Positions 37,920-40,702 of a stretch of 64,000 nt of DNA are shown in pieces (the stretch's first letter is position 1; every line of letters starts with the position of its first letter). The translations under genes and the position numbers were made by a program. Origin of the DNA: an alpha proteobacterium L41A (lineage in GTDB: Bacteria > Pseudomonadota > Alphaproteobacteria > Caulobacterales > Caulobacteraceae); assembly GCA_000335735.1 (NCBI GenBank), contig AMYY01000004.1:62001-126000 (forward strand), written 5' to 3'. The notes under the pieces are model-generated. The model saw only the letters and a program-made list of their open reading frames with translations. It did no database searches and was not told where the DNA came from.

Positions 37920-38073
37920 TTCGTCATCCTCCGGCGAGCGTAGCGAGATCGGGGGACCCAGTGGCGCCGGAGGCGATGCGTCCGCCGCATAGATCTTGAA
38001 CATCCACTCCGCGACAGGTTCGCGCTCGCGCGCCACTGGGTCCCCCGGTCGCTTCGCGCCGGAGGATGACGAA
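37920..38073. repeat. Large inverted repeat (REP-like palindromic element pair) in the ftsW-murG gap
   Basis: Outer arms of 17 bp (37920-37936 and 38057-38073, TTCGTCATCCTCCGGCG and its complement) pair perfectly. After an asymmetric 14/10-nt bulge, inner arms of 17 bp (37951-37967 and 38030-38046) also pair perfectly around a 62-nt loop. Each half contains GGTCCCCCG and GCCGGAGGATGACGA blocks, also found in a copy inside murD. The outer arm begins 3 bp from the ftsW stop codon. It can fold in both DNA strands and in the ftsW-murG mRNA. Confidence 0.85.
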
Positions 38074-38075
38074 GA

Positions 38076-39251
38076 TCAAATGAGCCGCCGGCCCATGGTC
38101 AGGCTGGCGCCGGGTTCGTAGGCGCCGGGGCGGCGTCGCGTCAGGGCTAGCGCAAAGCCCATGGTCAGGCCCATAGCCAGCATGGAGGAGCCGCCGTAGC
38201 TGATGAAGGGCAGGGTCATGCCCTTGGTCGGGATCAGGTTCAGGTTCACCGCAACGTTGATGCAGGCCTGAAGCCCGATCAGCATGAACAGGCCCGCCGC
38301 CGCCGTCTGCTCGAACGGATCGGTCAGCTTCATGGCCCGGCGCATGCCGCGAATGACGATGAAGGCGTAGAGGCTGATCATGATCAGGCTGAGGATCAGG
38401 CCGAACTCCTCGGCGCCGACGGAATAGATGAAGTCGGTGTGCAGGTCGGGCACGCGGCGCTTCATCACGCCCTCGCCGATGCCCCGGCCCAGCAGGCCGC
38501 CGGCGCGGATGGCCTCGGACGCGCTGTCGATCTGGTGGGTGTCGGTGGTCTCGGGCGAGAAGAAGCGGCTGAGGCGGTCGCGCATATGGCCGAAGACGAA
38601 ATACAGCGACACCAGCCCCGCCATGCCCAGGCTGGCCAGAACCGCCATCCATTTGAACGGCACGCCCGCCATGAAGAAGACGGCCATGAAGGTGGTGGTG
38701 ATCAGAAGCGTCTGGCCGATGTCGGGCTGGATCAGCAGCAGGGAGACGGTCAGGGCGTAGAAACCAAACGCTATGGTGACGCCGGGCACCCCTTGGCCCT
38801 TTTGCGCCTCGGCGAACATCCAGGCGGCGAAGACGATCAGTCCGGGCTTGGCGAACTCGGACGGTTGCAGGCTGAAGGGGCCGAAGTTCACCCAGCGGGC
38901 GGCCCCTTTCACCGTGTCGCCGATGAAGGGCAAGGCCATCATCACGACGATGGCGCCGAACAGGGCCAGGACGGCGATGCGTCGCACGCCGCGCGGCGAC
39001 ATCAGCGAGGTCGTCAGCATGATGCTGAGCCCCACGCCCGAGAAGACCATCATCCGCCAGGAATAGTGGAAGGGGTCGGTGATCGATTCATCGGCCAGGA
39101 TGGCGGCGGGGCTGGAGGCGAAGCTGAGCGCCACGCCCAGGGCCATCAGCGCGAGCGCCGCGCCCAGCAGGCCGCGATCCACAGTCCAGAACCACTGGGC
39201 CACATGGCTCTGGTCGTTGCGGGAAAAGGCGGGGGTGTAGGGAGCGCTCAT
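38076..39251 (-). CDS. ftsW: Divisome peptidoglycan polymerase FtsW
   Basis: This 391-residue SEDS-family inner-membrane glycosyltransferase works with FtsI at the septum. About ten hydrophobic segments are visible, with conserved VNFGPFSLQPSEFAKPGLIV, LLLIQPDIGQTLLITTTFMA, EFGLILSLIMISLYAFIVIR and the C-terminal PTKGMTLPFISYGGSSMLAM. Its ATG overlaps the murD stop by 4 bp. Confidence 0.96.
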   Translation of the reverse strand: MSAPYTPAFSRNDQSHVAQWFWTVDRGLLGAALALMALGVALSFASSPAAILADESITDPFHYSWRMMVFSGVGLSIMLTTSLMSPRGVRRIAVLALFGAIVVMMALPFIGDTVKGAARWVNFGPFSLQPSEFAKPGLIVFAAWMFAEAQKGQGVPGVTIAFGFYALTVSLLLIQPDIGQTLLITTTFMAVFFMAGVPFKWMAVLASLGMAGLVSLYFVFGHMRDRLSRFFSPETTDTHQIDSASEAIRAGGLLGRGIGEGVMKRRVPDLHTDFIYSVGAEEFGLILSLIMISLYAFIVIRGMRRAMKLTDPFEQTAAAGLFMLIGLQACINVAVNLNLIPTKGMTLPFISYGGSSMLAMGLTMGFALALTRRRPGAYEPGASLTMGRRLI

Positions 39252-40702
39252 GACGCGGATTCCGGGACGGCGCCGAGGGCCAGGACGGCGGCGCGGAAGG
39301 CCTCGCCGCGCACCTCGAAGTCCTTGAACTGATCGAAGCTGGCGCAGGCGGGGGACAGAAGGACGATCTGGTCGCCGCCGGCCGAGGCCGCATCGGCGGC
39401 GGCGGCGGCCACGGCGGCGTCGAGGGTGCGGGCGATGACGTGGGGCGTGTCAGCCAGTGTGGCGGCGAAGGCCGGGGCCGCGTCGCCGATCAGATAGGCC
39501 TTGGCGATGCGGGGGAAGAGGTCGGCGAGGTCCTCAATGCCGCCGGCCTTGGGCACGCCGCCGGCGATCCAAAACACCGACGGATAGGAGGCCAGGGCCT
39601 GACGCGCGGCGTCGGCGTTGGTGGCCTTGGAATCGTTGATGAAGCGCACGGAGCCGAGGCGGCCGACCGCCTCCATACGGTGGGCTAGGCCGGGGAAGGA
39701 CAGCAGGCCGGCGACGGCGGCGTCGTGCGAGACGCCGAGCCTGACGGCCGTACCATAAGCAAAGGCAGCGTTCTGAGCATTGTGACGGCCGGGTAACGAA
39801 CGGGCGGCGGCGAGATCGGTTATGATCACAGTATCCCTGCCTTCTTGCGAAAGAACGCCATCTACTGCTCGGAAACCGAAGCCGCTGATGAATCCGTTTA
39901 GCGGCTGTCGAGAAAAGTCCAGCGCTGCTCGATTGCTGACGCAAGCGAGCGACCAGTCATCGCAAATCTGATCCGCGATCCAGTGGCTCCACTCGTCATC
40001 GATGCTAACCATCGCGGCGCTGGCGCGTGATGGGCCTGGATTTGCGAAAATCCGGCGCTTGGCCGCGACATAGCCGTCCATGCCGCCGTGGCGGTCCAGG
40101 TGGTCGGGGCTGATGTTGGTCAGGATGGCGACATCGGGGGCGAAAGTGGTGGTCAGGTCCAGCTGATAGCTGGAGACCTCAATCACATAGACGGCGTCGG
40201 GCGTCGGTTCGGGCAAGGCCAGGACGCCGACGCCGATATTGCCGCCGACGTGGACCGTCAGGCCCGCCGACTTCAGCACCCAGCCGATCAGGGCGGTGGT
40301 GGTGGACTTGCCGTTCGTGCCGGTGATGGCGACGACGCGCGGTCCCCCGGTCAAGCCGGAGGATGACGACGAATACGAGGCCAGGGCGCGGGCGAACAGT
40401 TCGATGTCGCCGACGACGGGCACGCCGGCCGCGCGGGCCAGGTCCACGGTCCAGTGGGGCCTGGGATGGGTCAGGGGCGCGCCGGGCGACAGGACCAGGG
40501 CGGCGAAGTCGGACCAGTCGGCGGCGGTCAGGTCCTCGACCGTGAAGCCCTCGCCTTTCGCCTGCGCCCGGCCGGCCTCGCCGTCGTCCCACAGGATCGG
40601 GATCGCGCCCCCGGCCTGGAGAGCGCGCGCAGCCGTAATCCCCGACCGTCCCAGGCCGAAGACCGCGACCCGCCTGCCTTCAAAGCCGGGAACGGGGATC
40701 AT
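39248..40702 (-). CDS. murD: UDP-N-acetylmuramoylalanine--D-glutamate ligase (with in-frame repeat insertion)
   Basis: This 484-residue cytosolic Mur ligase adds D-Glu. The N-terminal Rossmann motif is RVAVFGLGRSGITAARAL, the P loop is VVAITGTNGKSTTTALIGWV, and further motifs are TNISPDHLDRHGGMDGYV, FINDSKATNADAARQAL and LLSPACASFDQFKDFEVRGE. Between domain 1 and the P loop is a low-complexity linker SYSSSSSGLTGGPR, encoded by a copy of the palindromic repeat (40341-40370). The frame is kept and all catalytic motifs are intact, so the enzyme is probably active. Confidence 0.95.
   Translation of the reverse strand: MIPVPGFEGRRVAVFGLGRSGITAARALQAGGAIPILWDDGEAGRAQAKGEGFTVEDLTAADWSDFAALVLSPGAPLTHPRPHWTVDLARAAGVPVVGDIELFARALASYSSSSSGLTGGPRVVAITGTNGKSTTTALIGWVLKSAGLTVHVGGNIGVGVLALPEPTPDAVYVIEVSSYQLDLTTTFAPDVAILTNISPDHLDRHGGMDGYVAAKRRIFANPGPSRASAAMVSIDDEWSHWIADQICDDWSLACVSNRAALDFSRQPLNGFISGFGFRAVDGVLSQEGRDTVIITDLAAARSLPGRHNAQNAAFAYGTAVRLGVSHDAAVAGLLSFPGLAHRMEAVGRLGSVRFINDSKATNADAARQALASYPSVFWIAGGVPKAGGIEDLADLFPRIAKAYLIGDAAPAFAATLADTPHVIARTLDAAVAAAAADAASAGGDQIVLLSPACASFDQFKDFEVRGEAFRAAVLALGAVPESAS
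40341..40370. repeat. REP-like palindromic repeat copy inside murD
   Basis: The 30 bp comprise GGTCCCCCGGTC, a short centre, and GCCGGAGGATGACGAC. These are the same two conserved arms as in both halves of the inverted repeat at 37920-38073, with a shorter centre. On the murD strand it encodes the Ser-rich linker ahead of the P loop. CCCCCGG(T)C and G(C)CGGAGG allow a small hairpin. Confidence 0.8.

Follow-up and report, generated by a model that had tools for sequence, protein, structure and literature searches.

The murD gene of the Brevundimonas genome studied here (G000; 3.11 Mb, 67 contigs) contains a CGTC-tagged REP that is translated in frame, as SSSSGLTGG, immediately N-terminal of the P-loop. 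The best and simplest reading is of a selfish or inert repeat that the protein tolerates because it landed in frame at a permissive hinge, and we consider it likely that the REP entered murD once, replaced the linker there, and has since either spread through recombination or survived as an old polymorphism. An earlier note on this DNA had gone further, proposing domestication of the element as an adapted linker; the evidence reaches tolerance only, and adaptive domestication is unproven.

The repeat in murD

The window is the whole 64,000-nt stretch of DNA that was analyzed (G000:C4:62001-126000). The features relevant here are:

37920..37958, + strand: REP in the intergenic space between murG and ftsW; first half of an inverted pair
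38039..38074, - strand: REP, also intergenic, immediately 3' of ftsW; second half of that pair
39248..40702, - strand: murD (UDP-N-acetylmuramoyl-L-alanine--D-glutamate ligase), 484 aa, intact, from the ORF list
40341..40368, - strand: CGTC-tagged REP palindrome in murD, 28 nt, with 8-bp stem and 5-nt loop
40343..40378, - strand: 36-nt block SYSSSSSGLTGG, in place of 21 nt, from nucleotide comparison of carriers with empty alleles

The product matches PDB MurD entries at E about 1e-49, and its AF2 model also matches MurD structures. The gene is open across its 484 aa, encoding the stretch ...LASYSSSSSGLTGGPRVVAITGTNGKST, in which the linker SYSSSSSGLTGGP directly precedes the P-loop GTNGKST; the P-loop and the remaining invariant MurD positions are preserved, as the earlier note had stated. 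Its central observation, a palindromic repeat lying in frame inside murD, is borne out by the 29-mer GGTCCCCCGGTCAAGCCGGAGGATGACGA at 40341-40369, for which 0 occurrences are expected in shuffles. In both DNA and RNA folds the CGTC is followed by the 8-bp stem and 5-nt loop, and the final two bases of the palindrome coincide with host CC.

The murD repeat was also said to have its arms in common with an intergenic inverted repeat, and this holds: both arms are present in the murG/ftsW pair (about 37920-38073; the 17-nt arms are 100% complementary and the 26-nt inner arms 88%), and the arm CCGGAGGATGACG occurs in the window at 37922, 38059, and 40356 only. Across the whole genome, the one-arm motif GTCATCCTCSGG gives 26 matches and its reversed control none, as suits a dispersed, REP-like element with further copies; for two-arm forms there are 18 listed matches (two places appearing twice), again versus 0 in the control. 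Arm-only matches near ORF starts at two loci (L065 and L069) lie ahead of the likely start and were excluded as intragenic units, as was a third (L076), at which the second palindrome arm was not seen.

The closest relative (L025, 95-96% identical) has 21 nt, encoding GRPKDQR, opposite the 36 nt of the window, a net difference of +15 nt. The earlier description as an in-frame insertion is therefore right as to the frame and wrong as to the event being clean: on this nucleotide comparison the murD repeat is a replacement, of 7 codons by 12. The 10 nt that precede the CGTC tag in murD, TCGTATTCGT, were found at no other copy seen; the source of this prefix is unexplained, which counts against our best explanation.

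The AF2 model (55 sequences) has the MurD fold and a mean pLDDT of 92.1. Residues 111-120, with a mean pLDDT of 64, form a loop that links helix 99-112 to strand 122-127 at the junction of domains 1 and 2 (the Pfam middle domain begins at 126), and the insert is accordingly modeled in a predicted flexible inter-domain loop, a position at which the E. coli MurD is shorter. A second weak loop, at 265-273 (pLDDT under 50), lies within the region of a second MurD insertion site described below.

The repeat family and its other in-frame copies

The motif GTCATCCTCSGGCTTGACCSGRGGA occurs in 97 of 131 genus genomes, in up to 53 copies, with 0 for the reversed control, and copies often form inverted pairs, both in G000 and in the genus genomes. 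CGTC stands before the stem in the murD copy; the other copies were gathered by CGTC or GTC plus arm, and their tag is thus partly by construction. The intergenic pair of the window has a loop longer than the 5 nt of the murD copy and shares with many intergenic copies a GGACCCA tail, in place of which the murD copy has CC and then host sequence.

CGTC-tagged REPs are described by Di Nocera and colleagues in 2013 (PMC3733652) as mostly alphaproteobacterial and intergenic, without a dedicated transposase, some units being intragenic, including one in uvrB of R. conorii. Our element resembles these in its alphaproteobacterial host, its CGTC end, a stem of 8 bp with a 5-nt loop, the occurrence of inverted pairs, a mainly intergenic location, and intragenic units; it differs in the CCA tail, of which the murD copy is missing the A. 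It belongs to this known but little-studied kind, CGTC REPs with intragenic units. Neither murD nor Brevundimonas appears in the main text of that paper, to which the comparison extends; the passages of PMC12306157 consulted mention none of murD, Brevundimonas, or Caulobacter. The murD/Brevundimonas instance is new as far as literature searches show.

The likeness to Rickettsia palindromic elements drawn in the earlier note is well placed, given that RPE-6 and RPE-4 are classed as CGTC-1 and CGTC-4 REPs in the same source (PMC3733652). As with RPE-1, RPE-4, and RPE-6, a palindrome is translated in frame inside an otherwise normal protein; unlike them, it is a short single unit (12 codons changed) in a free-living host, and it lies in the inter-domain hinge of an essential enzyme. 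The analogy is sound at class level. The RAYT-type transposase to which the earlier note had looked was not found: G000 has no Y1_Tnp gene, CGTC REPs are reported without one (PMC3733652), and we reject RAYT mobilization on this ground. Small dispersed palindromes and inverted pairs are features shared with RAYT-mobilized GTAG REPs, whereas the tag (CGTC) and the lack of a Y1_Tnp gene in G000 set the present element apart. Y1_Tnp genes are present in 1 of 25 genus genomes searched (G000 included) and in 3 of 41 genomes overall; the sole genus example is L080 in G018.

One stem type was found at 51 places in 27 of 121 genomes. All 51 were inspected, and 10 lie in frame inside genes: three in murD, five in the N-terminal part of uvrB, spread over 4-5 genomes, one in a DUF2461 gene, and one in an acyl-CoA dehydrogenase gene. 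Genes were called by a codon-composition heuristic plus Pfam, with no gene finder. Four places within an ORF by this heuristic (L174, L192, L195, and L196) were excluded because they sit close to the ORF start or ahead of the Pfam domain; L196 was judged through its likeness to L192 and not itself scanned. Of 30 loci sampled with a wider pattern, the heuristic placed 5 within an ORF; 2 of these were internal, in the DUF2461 gene again and in a gene for a DsbA-like protein. Empty homologues are available for comparison: 27 of 30 UvrB loci lack the unit (3 have it), as do all 8 other DUF2461 homologues. The uvrB loci are L190, L191, L244, L245, and L384; the repeat is a tandem double in G104 and occupies two positions in G117, one of them a clean insertion of 24 nt when compared with L384.

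Linker variation and history in Brevundimonas

MurD is present in all 121 genomes of the genus sample. We read 120 MurD loci, some of them partial, dropping one genome (G100) in which the MurD match was weak and partial, and scored the linker in 119, one row (L139) being without this site. The linker has 7 residues (RPKDQR type) in 116 of the 119 and 12 residues in 3. The earlier note had raised the case of orthologues with a Ser-rich linker and no repeat; there are none among these 116 (no linker has two or more serines).

This distribution bears on co-option, in which the longer, flexible Ser/Gly hinge would improve MurD domain motion or stability and be selected. The repeat keeps the frame in three species and its SSSSGLTGG frame recurs in murD, uvrB, and DUF2461, both of which would suit such a role; the recurrence hints at a frame bias but does not prove one. 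Yet nearly all relatives keep the 7-residue linker, other frames occur too (in the DsbA-like protein and the acyl-CoA dehydrogenase, L368 and L186), and, with a stop in two of the six frames, avoidance of harm suffices to favor small flexible residues. We judge co-option improbable.

The repeat carriers are G000, G061 (Brevundimonas vesicularis S00192), and G108 (L103). Their 36-nt blocks differ by one base, the junctions are identical, and all three have the same 21-nt loss and the same 10-nt extra prefix. The MurDs of G000 and G061 are 87% identical, and the insert is kept with one amino-acid change among carriers; its retention despite this divergence could also reflect a benefit. Copies of the murD stem type are rare in these genomes, with two in G000 and one each in G061 and G108, where the single copy is the murD copy itself. 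In a quickly built tree with 117 MurD rows (three short rows omitted; forks among carriers open), the carriers fall inside one 9-row clade with non-carriers interleaved, requiring 3 changes.

Because exact restoration of RPKDQR after loss of the repeat is implausible, we infer a single event, after which the allele either recombined or was maintained as an old polymorphism; the tree being quick and its forks among carriers open, it is the identical junctions that point to one origin. Three independent insertions at a preferred target, one per carrier lineage, would account for the lack of any flanking SNP private to carriers (across the 330 nt preceding and the roughly 450 nt following the insert, outside the block itself), and a 3' junction just before CCGCGC is common to murD and one uvrB case. 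The shared 21-nt loss and the shared prefix, seen nowhere else, speak against recurrence, which we regard as a slim prospect.

The murD middle segment (window about 39800-40060) is near-identical to that of G067, and the other close relatives compared are just 33-73% identical in the same windows; MurD alleles therefore look mosaic.

In the single-entry reading that we prefer, a CGTC-tagged REP would have entered murD in the ancestry of a B. vesicularis-like group, so that 12 residues took the place of the 7-residue linker joining the UDP-binding domain to the ATP-binding one. The frame would have been kept, and MurD would stay functional because the hinge loop would tolerate a flexible sequence such as SSSSGLTGG; MurD with the 12-residue linker probably works. 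The allele would then have moved by recombination from one closely related species to another, or else been retained as an old polymorphism. Both the neutrality of the repeat and recombination of the allele seem probable to us, and movement of the repeat by microhomology-assisted template switching of the hairpin is a guess.

The hairpin might instead act at the RNA or DNA level, tuning expression of the cell-wall/division operon, with the peptide as a by-product. The 28-nt repeat folds as RNA at -13.8 kcal/mol (z about -2.1), and much stronger folds are formed by the palindromes that other species have at the second MurD site; the empty allele, however, folds over the same stretch as well (-15.5 for 36 nt versus -18.8 for 45 nt), and such action appears very unlikely on these modeled folds. 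Chance likeness of the Ser-rich linker to the repeat, to which one might turn because the weaker arm GGTCCCCCGG by itself is not above chance within the window, is ruled out to near certainty by the shuffles, the genome-wide arm matches, and the empty alleles.

A second insertion site in MurD

Between SPDHLDRH and LPGRHN, other palindromic elements lie in frame in 34 of 118 MurDs (two rows being too short there), of three families: HPRxGDP..WVPAFAGM (17), SPLxGEGG..SPPRGEG (15), and VIPGPDA..PPRND (2). A further 12 MurDs have only a half motif at this site, their class being assigned by short pattern. The window MurD has no element of these families. Across genomes, the HPRxGDP family is found in 48 of 61, the SPLxGEGG family in 36 of 41, and the VIPGPDA family in 4 of 61. 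Examples, near-perfect palindromes, are at L103, L039, L131, L104, and L107; the five inserts sampled, 114-147 nt long, form near-complete RNA hairpins at -76 to -117 kcal/mol. Among the 117 tree rows the second site shows 27 state changes, which may include recombination.

A bolder proposition is that Brevundimonas MurD is a recurrent repeat acceptor, having taken in four families at two loops in frame, and that these loops are evolvable surfaces diversified by repeats and not random scars; we hold this to be doubtful. Gains, losses, or swaps across species would be many on that proposition, and we are as hesitant about them. That the second loop carries long palindromes in about three in ten sampled species does suggest a hotspot worth explaining. 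Alleles with and without the linker repeat provide clean before-and-after pairs of a selfish palindrome turned protein sequence, in an enzyme that is essential and whose structure is well known, and, since the genus is free-living and cultivable, it can be tested directly if insertions of this sort are neutral or useful.
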